The notes beneath the pieces were generated by a model. The model worked only from the letters and a program-made list of their open reading frames with translations. It did not search any database and had not been told where the DNA came from. Position numbers and translations under genes: made by a program. 64,000 nucleotides of DNA from Antedon mediterranea. Taxonomy: Eukaryota; Echinodermata; Crinoidea; Comatulida; Antedonidae. The DNA lies in contig NC_092670.1 in the NCBI RefSeq assembly GCF_964355755.1, positions 40,535,795 through 40,599,794 on the forward strand. Reading direction: 5' to 3'. How positions within the stretch are numbered: the stretch's first letter is position 1; every line of letters starts with the position of its first letter. Shown piece after piece: positions 5,956 to 56,598 of this stretch.

Positions 5956-8900
5956 TTAATTTGATATGCCTCCATGAATGTGTACAAAATCCATAAGATC
6001 ATTATTAAATGGTAAGTAGAAGTTTTCTAGGATGTCACGCGTCGCTGGCAGCATATCACCCAACTCTAGGTGGTCCTTTGTTGATCTAGAGTTCTTAACT
6101 GTTCTATTTAATATCTTCTTCTTGTCTTCTACCGTGTCTATTGACAAGAACAATAAAAAACTTTATTTATTAGTCGCTCGATTGTAATATAGTTCATTAT
6201 TATTGGATTTATCATTTCTTTATTACGTTTATTAAGGCAAGGATGGCGTATCTTTATTTTGGTCACATGATCGATGTAAACAGAGACGGAGCGACATAGA
6301 ATCGAGCAACTGAGAAGTAAGTGAAAATTGGTCACAAAAGATTGATTTTCTTAAAAATGCCACCCTAAACCACCCGTTTAACATATACATTTGGAATCAG
6401 CATCCTAAAATTGTATATAAAAAGATTGTCCGAAAAATTTCTGAGCCAGATGACATCCACCTTGGTCTACTATTATATATTGAATTTTACTCAAAATTTG
6501 ATAATCTTATATATTACAGAAACAGCGTGACTTACCAAGCTGCAGGAATTTGTAAACAGCATTGAGAGTTCTCATTGGATGATGATGCCAGTGGTCTAAT
6601 AGGATGAAATGTAATTGGTCACGTGGGAAAACTTTAAACCAATCACGTAAGAATATGACATACATCCCAGTTTGTATGGTGTCGACAATGTTTGTGCTGG
6701 CATTCTGAACAGAAACAAGTATTTAAATAGTTGCACATCAGAAATAACATTATTAACTTATTTATTTAATAATTTTTAATTACTGTAAAAATTATGGAAA
6801 AAGAGGGGCTTCTTTTCGAGATTTTACAGTATTTATGAAACAACTTACCTGGCAAATATCTGTATGATAAGCACAGTATCTTGTAGTGTGTACTCTCATA
6901 CATTGATGTAAACATTTAACAACTTTCTCTACCATGTTATGAAAATCTTCAGCAGATTTCTGCTGACTGCCTCGTCTTGAAAATATATATCCTGAATATA
7001 ACCTAATTAAAAAAATAAACAATTATATTTATTATATAAATAATTTGAACCTTATTACAAATATACCCTTTTTTTGTTAGAAATACCATGGTTAGCATTC
7101 AACATTTTATTTGTTTTTAAAATTTGTGACACAAATCAACACATATCACCACCAGATTTGGGCATATCACCACCATATTTAGTGTGATAAAAAAGTGTGA
7201 TGTGCCCAAATATGATAGAGATATGTCTCAACAACATTTTAAAAAATGCGCCCTCATGAATGATTGTAAGCATTTACTTTTACCTTTCAATAGGATCACG
7301 CAGCATGAATATTATCTTGGCAGAGGGTGTAAGAGCATATATCAGATCAGCTGTTGTGGCTACAAGTTCACCGTCAATCTCAAAGTCTGATAGCCAAGAT
7401 GGAGGAAGGTACCATCCTGTCGTCATGGAGGCATCACCTTGGCAACACAAACAGAGGTTAGTGTAATACATCACAGTCTTGCTTAAGCTCTGTCTACACT
7501 ATCAAACTAGTGTGATGTGCCCAAATATGGTAGTGATATGATTAAATATGGTAGTGATATAACATCATCATGTCCATATATGGTAGTGATATGCTTAAAT
7601 ATGGTAGTGATATGACATCATCATGTCCATATATGGTAGTGATATGCTTAAATATGGTAGTGATATGACATCATCATGTCCATATATGGTAGTGATATGC
7701 CTAAATATGTTAGTGATATGACATCATCATGTCCATATATGGGCATATCACATTTTTTGTGACATAAAGTTTGATAGTGTAGAAAGAGCTTTATTGATAT
7801 ACGAAATGAAATTTATATTTTTTATTATTTAAATAATAAATAAAAAATATAAATTTCAATACCAGGGGCAGATCCAGGGGCCTAAATTTGTTTTAATTAA
7901 TTGCTAAACTTAACCTAATGTGTAACTTTTGCATCTAAATTTATGTAACATGGACATTTTATTTTGTCTGTACATAGTCTGATTTGAACCAAAACAATGA
8001 GATCATAAAGCCAACATGCAATCACTAAGCTACTGTACCAGTATTTATTGATGTATTTACCAAATATTGCAGGATGGATGTCATGGCCCTCATGATTGAT
8101 ATCATGATTGATATCATGATTGATATCATGTTTCATATCATGATTTATATCATGATTTATATCATGATTGATATCATGATTGATATCATGTTTCATGTCA
8201 TGTTTCATATCATGTTTCATATCATGATTGATATCATTATTGATATCACGATTGATATCATGAATTGTTGTAAACGTTGATTCTCCTATTGAACTTGTGT
8301 ACCAGTCTAATGAAGATGGTTGGTATTTGTCACCACCTAAAATACAATGACAAATACATTAACATTTTAATGTTACGAGAGTATGTGAAGCGCCGCTGAG
8401 ATTTTCATAAGAATGGGTGCTATATAAACGTTAATGTTAACATTCAGTATGAAATTGAAATGTATAACTTCAATGTATATTACCAAATATAATCTTCTAT
8501 TCAATTTTGTAAATAAATTAAAACTATAGTATGATATAGTATGAAGTATTACTGACTCTTTGAGTTACGTTTGTCTGTATTTTCTGACCTTTTATTTTGT
8601 TTTGTTTCTTCTGTTGGTTAAGAGAGAACAAGAGAAAAAACATACCCACCCATCATAGTCTCACTAGGAGGGCGTCCTCTGCGCTCATATCGCCGAGCCC
8701 ACCATTGATACTCTTTAAATTTTGTCGCAACAACGTGTGGATGTTGTATAATCTTGTCCCAGATGTCGGTCGTTCCGCACTTTGGAAACCCGACAATGTA
8801 GAAGTAAGGAAGACAAATGAAATGGTCGCTGTTGTTATACCAACATGGGTTCTTGTACTCCTTTAGGAATTTGCGAGGAACTTGTACAAATAACTAGAAA

Positions 8901-9822
8901 ATAAAAAGATATTAAGCTTTCTCTACACTATCAAAGTTTATGTGACAAAAAAATGTGATGTGCCTATATATGGACATGATGATGTCATATCACTACCATA
9001 TTTAAGCATATCACTGCCATAAATTTAAATAAGGTTCCTACGTAATTAACTGTAAGAATATTACCTCTTTGTTGAACTCTTTTATTCTTTTAAGTGTTGA
9101 ACTATACATAGCTTTTCCACTATGAATTCCATCTTTAAAAAAGAGAAATATGTGACAGAAGTAGATCTACTCAATTTACTAAGTTCAAAATATGAATAAC
9201 ATTTTATCATTGTTTAATTTCAGAATTATTAGTTTTAAGAAATCCAGTTTTCTTACTCTTTCTGTCATATTTGCACTTGCCGTCAAAACGTTCTTGATAA
9301 GTACATGGCATAGAATACATGAAAAACAGCAAACTGATGATCAACGAAATTGTAGTAACAGCCAGAAACACTTTCTGAAACATGGATACAAAAACATTAA
9401 CATTCATGCTGTATATATAATCATAAGCTTGTTACAAAATCTAGATTGGCCTAACCTTCCTTGGCCCACTACTTAGCTACTAGCCTAGTAATAGTAGTAC
9501 TAGTGGTGACAGACTAGCCTTCTTGGTAGCCTACTTACTACTAAAGGCAGTATAGTCCTAATTATAGGTAGGCCTAGCTCGCTAGACCTAGTACAAGTAG
9601 TAGGCCTCCTACTACTACTACTACTACTAGCTAGGCCTAGGCCGAGTAGGCTAGGTAGTAGGCTAGGCTGTAAGCTACTAGCTAGGCCTAGGCTAGGCCT
9701 AGCTAGCCCACTTCTACTAGCTAGCTAGGCCTAGGCCTAGAGAGTACCAGCCAGGTTTTTTATGGGCTTTTGTAAGAAGCTGAAGATTTAAAAGCAGAAC
9801 TTACCATCGGCATCGAGTTCAT
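5956..9822 (-). CDS. CHST15: CHST15-like N-acetylgalactosamine 4-sulfate 6-O-sulfotransferase
   Basis: Nine coding exons on the minus strand: 9805-9822, 9257-9374, 9065-9132, 8650-8893, 8061-8336, 7284-7437, 6849-7002, 6536-6704, 5956-6137. Phases close to 460 aa plus stop. The family moves sulfate from PAPS to the C6 of GalNAc-4-sulfate in chondroitin sulfate, in the Golgi. Exon 2 gives a type II membrane anchor (about residues 9-28, LAVTTISLIISLLFFMY). The stem leads to VPRKFLKEYKNPCWY (73-87). The PAPS 5'-phosphosulfate loop is PKCGTTD (105-111). The 3'-phosphate site is RDPIERLYS (R288, S296). GMYVIFLRDWFKVFPRDQL and MLPATRDILENFYLPFN near the C-terminus are family hallmarks. Exon 1 is tiny (MNSMPM) and joins by a GTAAGT donor. 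The 8650 boundary uses GTGGGT because GTATGT next to it would put a stop in frame. Odd feature: residues 175-230 are an array of 14 tetrapeptides inside the catalytic domain. The protein is shorter than human CHST15 (561 aa), mainly in the stem. Confidence 0.93.
7139..7226. mobile_element. MITE family 1 partial copy
   Basis: Holds only the central inverted words of the family (GGGCATATCACCACCATAT and GTGTGATGTGCCCAAATATG) without terminal repeats. It lies in the intron between exons 6 and 7 of the sulfotransferase gene. Confidence 0.6.
7494..7792. mobile_element. MITE family 1 copy with internal tandem expansion
   Basis: Both ends are intact (AGCTCTGTCTACACTATCAA and ATAGTGTAGAAAGAGCTT, TA on each side). 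The middle has grown to about four 53-bp units, each containing GACATCATCATGTCCATATA and TGGTAGTGATATG. The element is twice the usual length. It sits in the intron between exons 5 and 6 of the sulfotransferase gene. Confidence 0.85.
8061..8336 (-). repeat. Coding 12-bp minisatellite exon of the CHST15-like gene
   Basis: This 276-nt exon links the 5'-PSB exon to the DASMTTGW exon. Positions 8095-8262 are 14 tandem 12-bp units, consensus GATATCAATCAT or GATATGAAACAT on the coding strand, giving HDIN or HDMK tetrapeptides (plus one RDIN and one NDIN). The repeat is in phase and keeps the exon open. The opposite strand is open too (IDIM/FHIM pattern), because the unit is built around the palindrome GATATC. 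Flanking sequence is normal: GDKYQPSSLDWYTSSIG before and HEGHDIHPAIF after, with good splice sites on both sides. Confidence 0.9.
8913..9021. mobile_element. MITE family 1 copy, 3' truncated
   Basis: Starts AAGCTTTCTCTACACTATCA and proceeds through the core GATGTCATATCACTACCATA, then stops without the second terminal repeat. It lies in the intron between exons 3 and 4 of the sulfotransferase gene. Confidence 0.75.
9470..9745. repeat. AGGCCTA/CTAG-rich palindromic tract
   Basis: Low-complexity sequence made of CTAGGCCTAG, GCTAGGCCTAG and TACTACTAC words, almost all self-complementary at short range. It fills part of intron 1 of the sulfotransferase gene. It has no coding potential and looks like local slippage of a short palindromic word. 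Confidence 0.8.
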
Positions 9823-12313: not shown

Positions 12314-13133
12314 CAATATAGATAGATCAGGGAGTTGTAACTCCCTGGATAGATGTTGTAGTCGAATCCACAGTGGAGTCATCAAGGTAGGTTACAAACA
12401 ATGGGAACATTGGTGTTGCACCTAACCCAATAACAATCTGTCCAATCACCAACCAGAAAACCCCTGATGATTGAACCTCCTCACTTGATTCACCGGTGGT
12501 GCACCCTTCCTCTACAACCTTATTCGGGTGACATAGCTTATTTTCAGCGTATTCAGTTTCCTTGGTATCATTGTAAAATAGCACGTGAGTCTTGTGTGCC
12601 AGAGGATCCGATGTAAAGTGCGGCAATACCACGTGACTCTTGTGTGCCAGAGGATCCGATGTAAAGTGCGGCAATACCACGTGAATCTTGTGTGCCAGAG
12701 GATCCGATGTAAAGTGCGGCAATGATAGAAGGAAGAATTCAATTCCTATGAGTATGCCAGCGACGGATAGAATTCTCGGACGGTGAGATTTAGAGCCGTA
12801 ATAAGTGACAAAAAGTAACAAAGATAATGTTACGATATCGTTGACAGTTGCGATCAGTCCGGATTTATAACTTGAAATTTGAAATTGTTTCTCAATGGTA
12901 CTGATGCATCCTCCAAAATACATTGTCGCTGCAGTTATTGTGACCAACATTGGCACCGACAAACGTAGGAAGGTGATTGGTGACACAAAACGGGATCCGT
13001 CCCTGGATCAAACCACCGTCTTCGTCATTTTGAGACCGTAAGATGTCGACGGGGTTGGTGTCTCGCTTGCCGTCCTCATTGACGACGGCGGCAACAGCGA
13101 CAGGACATTAGGAAAGGAATCGTGTTTGGACAT
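12314..13133 (-). pseudogene. Orphan first exon of an OATP (SLCO) transporter, disrupted
   Basis: This is a duplicate of the first coding exon of copies A and B: same start context (MSKHDSFPNV against [10 protein letters not shown]), first membrane helices (SPITFLRLSVPMLVTITAAT), [25 protein letters not shown] and [13 protein letters not shown], ending at a donor (GTGAGT) at 12313. Three things break it. A TGA follows about 42 codons after the ATG. A 48-bp segment is present three times in tandem (about 12587-12724), repeating [16 protein letters not shown] in frame. A 27-bp insertion near the donor (about 12326-12352) carries the inverted repeat CAGGGAGTT ... AACTCCCTG between copies of TCTATC and adds a TGA. 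None of exons 2-8 follows. The sequence downstream jumps to material like the 3' end of copy A, so the middle of the gene was lost. Confidence 0.85.
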
Positions 13134-17400: not shown

Positions 17401-19086
17401 GAAATTGCAAATTGTTTTTCGAAGTATTTGGCGGTGAAAAAGGCGAACCCAGCGACAATGGCAAGTTCACAAGACGCCATTAGCTGAGCAAAGATCACTG
17501 TAGGATTGGTTACGATCCTCTTCACTGCTTTCATAAGACCTAGCAACAAGAAATAAAATTCCATTCATTAATATGTTGCTGCAGGGGTATCCATAGTTTA
17601 GGTTCTAGACGCAACCCAATGACGTAAGTGCAACGCAAGCGAGATGGCCAATGATAAAGCGTCAGTTTGGATACGGTAGTAATTCACTGCTTGTGAAATT
17701 ACTTGCGTTGCGCGAAGTCTGAGGAGGTATGAACATGTATTACCTTTAACACTTGCTATCAGTCCTTTATCTTTATCCTGGAAAATATTGGCACTGTACA
17801 CGTCTGTGACGTTGATATCATCATTTAAAGCTTCTCTCTTTCCTTTTCGTTTAAAACATGAACACTCATACTTCTTCAATTGTCGAGGAAAGAAGAACAA
17901 CGGGATAGAAAACATCATTATCAAAGCGCTGAAGATGACAAATCCAAGCCACCAAGCGCCAATCCAACGGGGATCGCTGGGGTCTGTGGGTATGTTGTCG
18001 TCTTCGTCAACTCGATGGAAATCAACGTACAAAGAGAGACATTTAAAACTAGTGGTGAATCCGAGAAACGGGCCAAATGCAATTGACATGAATATAGCCG
18101 CTACAAAAGAAATATTATGTTTTAGAAAACAGTACAATACTGTACATATTATTATTAATGGTAAATAAACTTCACTTTACAGTACTCTGATTACTTGACT
18201 ACTTTACTTGTTTGAGTAAAATAATGCTGTTATTGAAAAAAGGAAAAGGTACACCATGTAGGCACGCGTTCAAACAATGTTAACGCGCGTGTCAATTCTG
18301 TGCCTCTTCGTCGTATTGAGATAAGAAAGAAAAAAACACACTCACCAATATAGATGGATGTTGTAGACGAATCCACCGTAGAGTCGTCAAGGTAGGTTAA
18401 AATCAAAGGGAATAGTGGTGCTCCGCCTATTCCAATAAAAATCTGTCCAATCACCAACCAGAAAACACCTGATGATTGAACCTCCTCACTTGATTCACCA
18501 CTGGTGCACGCATCCTCTACAACCTTATTTAGGTGACATAACTGATGTTCTACGTCTACATCTACGTATTCAGTTTCCTGTGTTTCATTGTAAAATACCA
18601 CGTGACTCTTGTGCACCAGAGGATCCGATGTAAAGTGCGGTAGTGATAAAAGGAAAATACCAATTCCTACGATTATGCCAGCGACGGATAGAATTCTAGG
18701 ACGGTGATATTTAGAACCGTAGTAGGTGACGAATATCACAAGAGATAACGTTACGATATCATTGATAGTTGCGATCAGTCCGGATTTAGAACTTGAAATT
18801 TGAAATTGTTTCTCAATGGTACTGATGCATCCTCCTAGGTACGTTGATGATGCCGTTATTGCGACATACACTGGCACTGCCAAGCATAGGAAGGTGATCG
18901 GTGAGCTGAAGCGAGTACACCCGTGGATCAAACAATCTGTGTCGACGTCGCCGTTGTCGTCTTTGTATCGTTTAGAGTAGGGATGTATGTCGTCGAGGTG
19001 CTTTTGTTGTCCTGCTTCTCGTCCGTGTTGTCGTCGTCGACGGCAACGACAGGGGTGACATTAGGCAAGGAATCGTATTTGTACAT
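14455..19086 (-). CDS. Organic anion transporting polypeptide, copy A (N-terminal frameshift)
   Basis: Exons on the minus strand: 18356-19086, 17744-18100, 17375-17539, 16685-16895, 16171-16348, 15709-15905, 15162-15226, 14697-14905, and a doubtful terminal exon 14455-14478 (NQNENSA). Exons 2-8 match copy B in length or nearly so (exons 3, 4, 7 and 8 are identical in size) and in phase. OATPs are 12-helix plasma-membrane carriers of amphipathic organic anions. The signature [12 protein letters not shown] is in exon 2. The Kazal-type extracellular cysteine domain ([19 protein letters not shown] ... SACHAGC) is in exons 5-6. The N-terminus is abnormal. The frame from ATG 19084-19086 ([10 protein letters not shown]) ends at TGA about 18930, while the transporter frame ([10 protein letters not shown]) is shifted by one base, is closed further upstream, and has no start codon of its own. 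One indel, real or an assembly error in GTC/GAC-rich sequence, would explain it. Relation to SLCO4 members is likely but not proved. Confidence 0.85.
15540..15665. mobile_element. Palindromic repeat family 3 copy
   Basis: A block with GTGTCGCAGCCACAGATAAA and GATCTCCGGAGCTCAGCAT. A second, poorer copy lies at about 15385-15445. A relative sits in an intron of OATP copy B at about 28953-29125. The two arms (CTGCGACAAA ... CAGTCC and TGTGTCGCAG) are roughly inverted. Probably a short non-autonomous DNA element. Confidence 0.55.
17596..17727. mobile_element. MITE family 2 copy, degenerate
   Basis: Carries the family core (GACGTAAGTGCAACGCAAGCG, then ATTACTTGCGTTGCGCGAAG inverted) with worn ends. 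It lies in the intron between exons 2 and 3 of OATP copy A, ending just before the exon 2 donor. Confidence 0.65.
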
Positions 19087-51700: not shown

Positions 51701-54700
51701 AAGCATGTTTTGCCTTGTTCCATTACATCTCTTAAATCTTCCTTTTAAAAAAACAATTCAATAAATGAGAACTTCCGTAACTATGAAAATAAAAAGAAAA
51801 TTATCGTTTTGTACTACAATACAAATTTGATATGTAGCACCTACCTACTATCATACAACAAGCTTGATATGTAGCACCTACCTACTATCATACAACAAGC
51901 TTGATATGTAGCACCTACCTACTATCATACAACAAGCTTGATATGTAGCACCTACCTACTATCATACAACAAGCTTGATATGTAGCACCTACCTACTATC
52001 ATACAACAAGCTTTCATAGTATAAATTTATCGTCATCAAATAACTCACCTCTCGTTGCCGCGAGAATGCTTCCAACATTTGTTTAGTGTGCCATATCGTT
52101 GGAAAAGATTCCTTACGAGGATTTCGATAATTTCGGTTAAGGTCTCTAGCTGCCAACGAACACCGATAATTCCCAACAATTACGCCATCCGGGTTTAACA
52201 TTGGAACAATTTTGAATATAAAGTTTTTGCGCAATTCCTAGAAAAAGGAGTAAAAGAATGGTATAATAAGTGGTAGAATGGAATAGGTTCAAGATTTATA
52301 CCTGTAGTCACAGGGTGCAGGGTTCATATCCTGTCATTAATCAGGCTCTGTCCACACTATCAAAAAAAGTGTTATGTGCCCAAATATGGTAGTGATAGGA
52401 CATCATCATGTCCATACATTTTTTGTCACATAAAGTTTGATAGTGTAGACAAGACTTTAGATATGTATTCACTTTTTAAGGTGAGAAGCTAATTGATTCC
52501 AAAATACTGAATAGAGATTTTTTTTAAAGTATTTAAGCACATGTGGCCAAGGATTACCAATAGTAAATTAACCACTGTTCTATCAGATAGGTGGTAATCC
52601 CCTGATACAGGGACTATTTTGTGAATCAGTTCTTTGGGGAAATCTCCTATTTAACCTATGACATGGGTAACAGTGAAAATTAAAATTTATGTTTGCATGT
52701 GGTTCTACTTAAGTAGCGACACCTTATATGTGGTGTACATAACATGGTAAATAGTGAAATAAAACCACAAAACGTGAGTACACAATTGAAAGTACTGTAA
52801 GAATCAGGAGTCCATTAGAATGACACTTTTGGGAATGTCATTTCATCCTGTTTGAGAGAGGCTCAATTCCTACCTGAGCATCATGGTCTAGACTTGTGAG
52901 GAAGTCAATGACCCCTTTCATGATCCAACTGGAGTTAGTTTCTCCTGGATGTACTCTGGCCGTGATTACAACACCTTTCTTCTCTTTGTCTTCAACCTCT
53001 TCACCTGTATGAGAAACAATGGTTTCTTTTATTAAAAATGTTTACCTTTATCTTTATAAAAATAATTTTACTAAGGAATATAATTCAAGTAACACTGTGT
53101 GAGACAATAGCTGGTTTAACATATTATGGAAAATGACATTTTATTCTCAATAGTTAAAAATAATTATACAAAATTGAGTATAATATTTTAAGTATATGTA
53201 AATTTAGCAATAGAAAAAACAAGGAAGTTAAATTTTGAAATACTATAGATCTCTTTGATAAAATAAACACTACTGTACCATTAATTAACTGTAAAATATC
53301 TTTAAAAAATTAATCAATTATCCATTAGATGAAGAGATAGTTAAGAGGTATACAGCTATTTCCATTATATGATAGGAATTATTACCATTAGATGAGGAGA
53401 TAGTTAAAAGGTAACAGCTATTTCCAGCTCTCGTCTCGCACATCACTTCTCGCTGTAAATAGCGCCCTCTAACTGGATCAGAAATGATTGAGTCGATGTG
53501 TTCTTTAAGATCAGTGAATGTAAAAGGGTAACAATGAGCTAAGTAGCAAGTGTCTTCCTCATGGTCAAATTCCTACAAGATGACAAATAATTAGTTAATT
53601 AATATTCCTATACTTTATATATATTATATATATTATATATAACTTTAAACACAGAGGGAGTAAAAGATAAAAAAGATGTCTTAATGTCTATAGCTCTGTC
53701 TACACGATCAAACTATAAAAAAATGTGATGTGCCCATATATGGATGATGATATAATATCACTACCATATTTAGGAATATCAATATTATTATTTGGGCACA
53801 TCACACTTGTTTGATAACTAATTAGAAAAAAAACTAGTTTAATAGTGTAGACAGAGCTTTATCCTTCAACATAATTTTATTGAAACAAAAAAGATAGAAC
53901 AAAAAAGTAGTGTAAAAAAGTGGTGTTACCATTTGCCACTCTAAAACATAGTAAGTCATATCGGGGTGTAGAAGTGGGTTCCTTGATGTGTAGTTGCGTC
54001 TGTAGCTTATATGATGTCCGCTGCGTTCCCATCCGATACTTTTCAATGTCGCTTTCTTTTCAGAGTATAATAAAGGACGCATACCTGTCAAGAAAATTTA
54101 ATTTAAACATTTTTTTTTTAATTATTTAAAAATGTAATGACATAATTGTCTCAAAAACAATCACATGTGCTTCTTTTCAAGCAATTTAGTAGGTTTTATT
54201 GAATTGACACCTCATTAATATTGTAAACCAACTAGATCATTAATTTTAAAATGTGCCATGTTTAAAAAAAATCCTGTGGGCTTACTTTTGATGCAATAAA
54301 AAGATTGGGTAGTATTAAATGTCTATATATTCTCACACCCACTGACACAAACACAATAAAAATATAAAATCTATCAAACAAATAAAATAAAAACACAAGG
54401 CTAATAATTGTTCACTGATCAAGGTCAGTACTATGATAATGTTACATGATATTTATTTGTTTTTGTTGTAAACAAAAAAATTTGAATTGTCCCAGATAAT
54501 ATAACCCATCCTTTTATATCCTGCCATACTTCATTGACGTCATACACTACTGTGACGTGTGGCATGTATATTGTTTGTGTGATTTCTCATACTTGTACAT
54601 ACTACTGATACATTGTATACAAACAAATGTGAGCATGTTTATCATTTCCAGCTTAAGATGGCCGGCTTCTTTTAAAACAATTCCCACACCTGCACTTTCA

Positions 54701-56598
54701 CGCCCTCCTTCAATCAACAATGTCATTCTATACCATATATTTTCATATTTATCTTTCTTAAAGCTCTAATAGATTATTTTAATAGCTTTGACTTTGACAC
54801 CAAAGACAATGAAAGATTGTTTTTTTGTTGTTGGACTTTAATTTTACAATTACCAGGGCCCATGGTTCAAATTCTGCCAGTTCCAGGATTTTTCTGACAG
54901 CCAATATAGCGCCACTACTTAAACTCATATGAGACTCAGTTTTGAAAGCATGTTTTTTCTGACTGTAATTGGCGAGTTATGTGTTGTTGTTTGGTATGAG
55001 AAGTAGAAGTTATATATTTACAGTATATTGAATCTGAAATCTGAATCCTTTTGGTAACCACCCTCATTTCAGAGAGTGGTGTAGTTGTGGGAATCTATCA
55101 CAACACTTATTGGTTTGTAAGCATGTGTAGACTTTTCTGCTTTGTTTGGTGTTGCCTAGTGTAATAAAAATTAATTCTGAATTACCATGGTTATAAAGAC
55201 TGTCACGCTTGAGTAGGTTGATAATACTGAATTTATACGTTACTCCAGGAACCATGTGCTGAAGGCGAAAATAATACCACTGGGTGTGTCTGTTGGTGTA
55301 CAGGTCAGTCTTTAATAGGAGTTCATATTCAAACTGACCTCTACAAGAAAAAAGATTTGATTTGATTTACTCATTATATTTAAATACAGGTAACAAAGAA
55401 CATTAAAGTGATAAAACAAACAAAAAATAATGAATAATAAAATAGACAATGTCAACGTATTTTGAAAGTTTTAAATGTAAACGCCATCGTTTCAACAACC
55501 CTCTTTATGTCAATGGCTACCAGATGGACCATGTTTTGAGCATGATGTTAATGCCTTAGGCTACCAGATGGACCATGTTTTGAGCATGATGTTAATGCCT
55601 TAGGCTACCAGATGGACCATGTTTTGAGCATGATGTTAATGCCTTAGGCTACCAGATGGACCATGTTTTGAGCATGATGTTAATGCCTTAAAACTTATTT
55701 TCATGTCCTGTAATAGCATGTTTGTCAACTTACACTCGCTTTGCTTGACGCAAGTTGCCAGACTCAAACCGTGATTCAAATAGAAGACTAGAACAACAAC
55801 CCTCAGGAACATCAAGAATGGCACTTGTCCGAGATGACCGCTCAGAATCGTAGACCATCAGTGACCCATCCCAAGGACGGAACCAGCGTGTGCGTTGATT
55901 GTGGACGGTTCTTGCTTTTTGGGGGACTGAAAATATCAAAAAGAAAATACATTCATCAACAAATCTATAAAATATAAAAAAGAAAATACATTCTTCAACA
56001 AATCTATAAAATATGAAAAAGAAAATACATCCATCAACAAATCTATAAAATATTTAAAGGAAATGTCCAAACCAAAGGTCAAACCACAGCCACCAGGATT
56101 TGTGGTTGTTTAAAAATATTTACTTTATGTAAAAAAAGATTTGATGTGCCCATATAAGGACATGATGTCATATCACTACCATATTTGTTCATACCACTAC
56201 CATATTTAGGCACGCTACACCTTTTTTTGTCAAGTTTGATGTTTAGTTTGATAGTGTAGATAGAGATTAATCATACAATATTAAATCAATAAAAAAATAC
56301 ACACTAATAGTCTGAGGTATTCAATACACCTACCATTTAATTCTTCAGGCTCACTTGGTACCGTTCTCAAATGAGATGGTGTTTGAAAGATAAAACTAGG
56401 GTGACATAGAGGCCAAAAAGGACCACCTACAACGCCACGTCCTTTATCCCATACGGTGTACTGCCAGAAATCACGCCTTAGGAAGGGCGAGGATCCTGAA
56501 AGGGGCTCTAGGCTCTCTTTAGCCATAGATTGTTGCGATTGGTTGCCGCTTGCACTAGGCTTAGAAGAAGATTTTCCAGAGAGGCAAAGGTCCATCAT
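44631..56598 (-). CDS. AGBL2: Cytosolic carboxypeptidase of the AGBL2/AGBL3 (CCP2/CCP3) type
   Basis: Fifteen minus-strand exons: 56334-56598, 55734-55926, 55186-55340, 53930-54084, 53386-53572, 52874-53004, 52049-52237, 51334-51471, 50816-51063, 50401-50501, 49817-49991, 49327-49450, 49019-49069, 45721-45867, 44631-45374. Phases close to 1000 aa. M14D metallo-carboxypeptidases trim glutamates or detyrosinate tubulin tails, often at cilia. The N-terminal domain holds [35 protein letters not shown] and [14 protein letters not shown]. Zinc ligands are H337 and E340 ([11 protein letters not shown]) and H433 (CDLHGHSRK). Substrate-pocket motifs are [11 protein letters not shown] (377-387) and DLNRNY (394-399). 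The catalytic Glu is E510 ([11 protein letters not shown]). After the catalytic domain come an acidic Ser run ([14 protein letters not shown]), a basic segment and a long low-complexity tail with a CSCFEC cysteine pair. The 50501 acceptor (CCTAAG) was chosen because the next CAG gives a stop. AGBL2 and AGBL3 cannot be told apart here. Confidence 0.93.
46112..46406 (-). repeat. tRNA-derived SINE, fullest copy
   Basis: On the minus strand the head reads GTGAGTGGCCGAGCGGTTAA (box A) with box B GGGGTTCGAGGC about 45 bp later, like a class II (Leu/Ser-type) tRNA. A body of about 220 bp follows, with TCTTCTCGGATAAGGACTAT and GTGTGCACTTTAAAGAAC. The 3' acceptor stem is not closed, so this is not a tRNA gene. 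It lies in the large intron before the last two exons of the carboxypeptidase gene. Confidence 0.78.
46841..46950. repeat. Tandem repeat, 28-bp unit, 4 copies
   Basis: Unit GAGGGGTGTTTAATTGGAGT followed by CGGACCAA. Intronic in the carboxypeptidase gene. Confidence 0.93.
48770..48840 (-). repeat. ATA microsatellite with reversed retroposon tail
   Basis: About 40 bp of AAT triplets adjoining TTTATACAGCGCACATATCC, the complement of the tail seen at 19905-19972. Intronic in the carboxypeptidase gene. Confidence 0.65.
49661..49744. mobile_element. MITE family 1 remnant
   Basis: CTAGTTGGACAAAAAAGTGT followed by AATGTGCCCAAAATGG, then GGGCATAATTGTTTGTCAC and a worn right end. Intron of the carboxypeptidase gene. 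Confidence 0.6.
51829..52013. repeat. Minisatellite, 37-bp unit, about 5 copies
   Basis: Unit GATATGTAGCACCTACCTAC followed by TATCATACAACAAGCTT. It ends about 35 bp from the donor of the DLNRNY exon of the carboxypeptidase gene (exon edge at 52049). Confidence 0.95.
52343..52458. mobile_element. MITE family 1 copy
   Basis: GGCTCTGTCCACACTATCAA and TTGATAGTGTAGACAAGACTT ends. Core shortened. Carboxypeptidase intron. Confidence 0.78.
53693..53859. mobile_element. MITE family 1 copy
   Basis: AGCTCTGTCTACACGATCAA and TAATAGTGTAGACAGAGCTT ends, TA on both sides. The longer core contains GATGATGATATAATATCACT-like sequence. Carboxypeptidase intron. Confidence 0.85.
55517..55690. repeat. Minisatellite, 44-bp unit, 4 copies
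   Basis: Unit CTACCAGATGGACCATGTTT followed by TGAGCATGATGTTAATGCCT and TAGG. About 45 bp from the donor edge (55734) of exon 2 of the carboxypeptidase gene. Confidence 0.95.
55932..56056. repeat. Tandem repeat, about 42-bp unit, 3 copies
   Basis: Unit AAAGAAAATACATTCATCAA followed by CAAATCTATAAAATAT. It begins immediately upstream (transcript sense) of the exon 2 acceptor, whose exon edge is 55926. Confidence 0.85.
56112..56265. mobile_element. MITE family 1 copy
   Basis: Left end worn (ACTTTATGTAAAAAAAGATT), core GATGTCATATCACTACCATA, right end TAGTTTGATAGTGTAGATAG. In intron 1 of the carboxypeptidase gene. Confidence 0.75.

Follow-up and report, generated by a model that had tools for sequence, protein, structure and literature searches.

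A coding minisatellite of 14 units of 12 bp, which spell HDIN or HDMK (minus strand, 8096-8263), lies in the fourth exon of a sulfotransferase gene within the 64-kb window, by which we mean the whole stretch of DNA analysed, and it is a real event of an ordinary kind, i.e., an ordinary process at an unusual site. We consider it likely that this is a young coding minisatellite which expanded in a loop of a Golgi-type sulfotransferase, before the strand of the predicted catalytic acid, and which is tolerated there.

The array was located by TRF at 8090-8263 with 14.5 copies (as read from one assembly, in which collapse or expansion of the repeat during assembly is possible), 90% matches, 0% indels and a score of 257, while the top score among 500 dinucleotide-preserving shuffles of exon 4 was 95; the unit register is good to a base. 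On the minus strand from 8263 to 8090, 14 uninterrupted units and a partial unit encode, in this order, HDIN, RDIN, NDIN, HDMK, HDMK, HDMK, HDIN, HDIN, HDIN, HDIN, HDMK, HDIN, HDIN and HDIN, followed by HEGHDIHP. In the sense direction the HDIN frame alone stays open across the array, the other two do not, and one antisense frame is open as well; with this and the TRF score, the 14 in-phase HDIN/HDMK units described in the initial annotation are confirmed. The units comprise six distinct sequences, with two silent kinds of difference (ATC/ATA and GAT/GAC) and several kinds that replace residues (e.g., His to Arg or Asn, and Ile-Asn to Met-Lys). The unit of 12 bp is a multiple of 3 bp, it is repeated in an open frame and the exon has homologues, which makes the array a coding minisatellite. 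Two joined HDIN units belong to a single locus, as all eight matches in the 354-Mb genome (at most two mismatches) fall inside the array, and a dispersed or mobile repeat is thereby ruled out. When exon 4 was searched against the genome, 25 of the 26 matches were elsewhere, weak and low-complexity-like, several with stops, and a search of viral contigs gave no match. The perfect length of the units had also been pointed out, and it is true (0% indels), but it does not serve as evidence of selection; the absence of indels and stops was rejected as such a sign because most other tandem arrays in the window likewise show few or no indels, non-coding arrays are also without them, and the main unit has codons that are far from stops.

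The host gene (minus strand, 9407-5956) has eight exons and an open coding sequence of 1398 nt for 465 amino acids plus the stop; all junctions are canonical gt/ag with matching phases, and there is no stop or frameshift. Exon 1 (9257-9407) holds the start codon and a hydrophobic N-terminal segment that by hydropathy resembles a type II signal anchor (best 19-residue value 2.36, residues 13-31), and by this predicted anchor the protein is a type II membrane sulfotransferase. In the spliced gene model, exon 2 (9065-9132) encodes the stem, exon 6 (6849-7002) contains LYSGY, and exons 7 (6536-6704) and 8 (5956-6137, with the stop codon) complete the protein, while gene model and paralogue alignment together place the 5'-PSB (VGFPKCGTTD) and KEYQWW in exon 3 (8650-8893) and GDAS, with the predicted catalytic acid, and the first part of the 3'-PSB (IIFMLRDPIER) in exon 5 (7284-7437). 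A point against the model is that the donor taken for exon 3 (gtgggt) is weaker than a GT close by, the gtatgt located a few bases further along; splicing there would lead to a stop. Exon 4 (8061-8336), which has a homologous segment in four paralogues, is 276 nt long with phase 1 at both ends, and the array stands in it between the flanks GGDKYQPSSLDWYTSSIGESTFTTI and HEGHDIHPAIF. Its boundaries (ag/GTGGTG...TATTTG/gtaaat) fit 8336-8061 exactly, and the next exon begins at 7437, as had been proposed. All eight exons are on the minus strand.

Membership of the PAPS-dependent sulfotransferase superfamily is established by profile matches above the curated cut-offs, namely Pfam PF00685 Sulfotransfer_1 (45.9 bits, cut-off 22, E=6e-12) and PF13469 Sulfotransfer_3 (35.1 bits, cut-off 27, E=2e-8), the latter in a single stretch that spans the array. 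The 5'-PSB PKCGTTD and the 3'-PSB RDPIERLYSGY are intact and conserved in the five aligned family members. PDB sequence searches matched only heparan sulfate 3-O-sulfotransferases (3-OST), NDST and a bacterial sulfotransferase, and a profile of the gene and its paralogues matched the 3-OST structures (1zrh, 1vkj, 3uan) and the bacterial sulfotransferase 3rnl with E values of 1e-10 and 3e-12. The initial annotation had described an intact CHST15-like gene with the array between the 5'-PSB and GDAS exons; the intact sulfotransferase and the position hold, but the name CHST15 reflects a resemblance of motifs, the database matches being to sulfotransferases in general. The family layout of CHST15 (GalNAc4S-6ST) is type II topology with 5'-PSB, GDAS/GEAS and 3'-PSB in that order; compared with this layout, the host protein is likewise type II and has PKCGTTD, GDAS/GEAS and RDPxERLYSGY in the same order, whereas the 56-residue HDIN/HDMK insert is its own. 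No report on CHST15 in invertebrates was found in the literature searched.

As controls, five further sulfotransferase loci (L025-L029) are available in the same genome, and the segment from the 5'-PSB exon to GDAS/GDGS/GEGS was found in four of them (on C6, C5 and, in two cases, C4), none of which carries the array or any repeat. L026, L027 and L029 have it as separate exons of 96, 96 and 87 nt that end at the phase-1 Gly codon of the window exon, and exon 4 without its 168-nt array measures 108 nt, which is close to the 87-96 nt of these paralogues. The 3' intron before GDGS/GEGS has the same phase-1 position as in the window gene in three of the four comparable paralogues. The closest paralogue, L025 (C6:6939200-6942500), shares the phase-1 5' boundary of exon 4, and its flanks read SSIEWY...FHPKVFGDAS where the window gene reads SSLDWY...IHPAIFGDAS. 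Across the paralogues, the segment varies in length and sequence. Since the paralogues have a homologous exon segment free of repeats, the repeat is exonic; the initial annotation had named a different exon in orthologues as the sign of an intronic repeat, and the comparison was run on paralogues of the same genome. Nor was any intron inside exon 4 found, GT-AG or GC-AG, that would remove the array in frame: one AG is available 3' of the array, no GT or GC donor situated 5' of the array or in its first part keeps the frame with it, and all six long internal options break the frame. An intronic repeat is thus ruled out, both because the paralogues have homologous exon segments whose introns agree in phase and because no internal GT-AG intron restores the frame, and the array is translated unless the entire exon is skipped. 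Two observations on the paralogues stand apart from this. In L025 the intron ahead of GDAS, present in the window gene and in three other paralogues, has been lost. At L028 (C5:21988500-21995500), where no equivalent of the array exon was found, GDGS reads VDRS, and this copy may be degenerate, or else the exon escaped detection.

In alignments to solved structures, the segment before the array aligns with GLGWYLSQM of 3-OST-1 and the GDAS of the host gene with GEAS of 3rnl, which puts the array into the stretch that joins a helix to the active-site strand and that differs among the paralogues in length and sequence. In 3-OST-1, Glu90 is the catalytic glutamate and Glu88 a gate residue for specificity (PMC8341778); by inference from sequence, GDAS would sit at the position of Glu90. 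About 13 residues separate the end of the array from the predicted catalytic acid. At this position the 3-OSTs and 3rnl differ from the host protein, having a short helix-strand link without a repeat.

One alternative is that the array was selected for a function: it would form a His/Asp-rich helix by the acceptor cleft, bind metal or act as a sensor of Golgi pH, and tune access of the substrate. The 56 residues include 12 His and 14 Asp, with HxxxH spacing recurring along the length; the array ends close to the predicted acid, and in 3-OST-1 the gate Glu88 comes just before the catalytic Glu90 (PMC8341778); an AF2 model of exon 4 alone is one helix (residues 16-82; mean pLDDT 70.7, about 80 over most of the array). 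The helix is weak evidence, however, because lone repeats are often modelled as helices, AF2 run on a single sequence tends to predict helices for repeats, and the pTM is 0.31; a fold search with this model returned nothing, as is expected of a lone helix. In addition, nothing similar is present in any paralogue, and the differences among units include amino-acid changes without a pattern showing constraint, and we therefore regard selection for function as unlikely. It seems very improbable that the array is a long His-ridged surface helix by the acceptor cleft whose length, changed by slippage from one individual to another, adjusts the pattern of sulfation or lets the enzyme respond to metal or pH.

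As a further explanation, exon 4 could be skipped or alternatively spliced, so that most protein is without the array, and with 276 nt and phase 1 at both ends its skipping would keep the frame. The same skip, however, would also remove the invariant Tyr (WY) together with the strand ahead of GDAS, both of which all four comparable paralogues encode, and the product would probably be inactive, which leaves this explanation quite improbable. That the gene is a decaying copy, with the array a result of relaxed constraint in a pseudogene, draws on the presence of several paralogues in the family, but 1398 nt without stop or frameshift, with all splice sites and PSB motifs intact, make it very improbable.

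The surroundings are rich in repeats, with 36 tandem arrays covering 8.5% of the bases of the window. A second coding minisatellite (minus strand, 12577-12723) consists of three in-frame copies of a 48-bp unit (16 residues) in a gene of the OATP/SLCO family (E=4e-37), while the adjacent OATP paralogue at 18230-19060 has one copy. This expansion from one to three copies between neighbours means that frame-safe growth in protein loops is not unique to the sulfotransferase here. The array does not find support as a special anomaly: the segment varies among the paralogues, the window is minisatellite-rich and the OATP neighbour shows the same phenomenon. Intron 4 of the host gene contains, at 7485-7791, a MITE-like element whose inverted termini are 24 bp long (AAGCTCTGTCTACACTATCAAACT) and which has a 53-bp minisatellite inside. 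Its terminus has more matches in the window (e.g., 8919-8937, 53696-53854 and 56245-56263), and with up to two mismatches allowed there are about 29,700 matches in the 354-Mb genome (control 0). Near 410.9-412.4 kb on C1 the terminus is repeated at spacings that are multiples of 42 bp, as though it had become a satellite.

To return to the young, tolerated minisatellite, its growth probably started from a single 12-bp unit, possibly derived from the edge sequence CATGACATCCAT (HDIH), to which replication slippage or unequal exchange would then have added further copies. Since the unit is a multiple of 3 bp and the codons of its main form are at least two steps from a stop, any copy number gives a full-length enzyme, and the minisatellite would be tolerated because 12 bp keeps the frame. 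The 56 extra residues would stand out from the surface, either helical or as a flexible loop, between the helix that follows KE-WW/WY and the strand that runs to GDAS, presumably at little cost to catalysis, and the copy number is predicted to vary between individuals. In Plasmodium globular proteins, repeats are mostly in probable surface loops (PMC2705789), and in Daphnia in-frame coding VNTRs are common, 70% of 106 tested loci being polymorphic across populations (PMC2763877); in human proteins, by contrast, most repeats are old and have stayed stable (PMC3995336). The array resembles the Plasmodium and Daphnia repeats in that it is in frame, has hydrophilic residues, occupies a variable segment and consists of units whose length is a multiple of 3 bp (PMC2705789, PMC2763877). 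It differs in that those are homopolymers or belong to surface or cuticle proteins, whereas here the genome is metazoan-like and a mixed tetrapeptide is repeated in a Golgi-type sulfotransferase; no repeats in sulfotransferase catalytic domains were found in the literature searched.

The locus is a clean example of how a frame-safe minisatellite grows in a catalytic domain, with paralogues of the same genome that have no repeat as controls. If the copy number varies, it would provide a natural series of loop lengths by the active site, with which one could measure how well an enzyme fold tolerates insertions; otherwise, the array reflects the ordinary turnover of repeats in a part of the genome that is rich in minisatellites.
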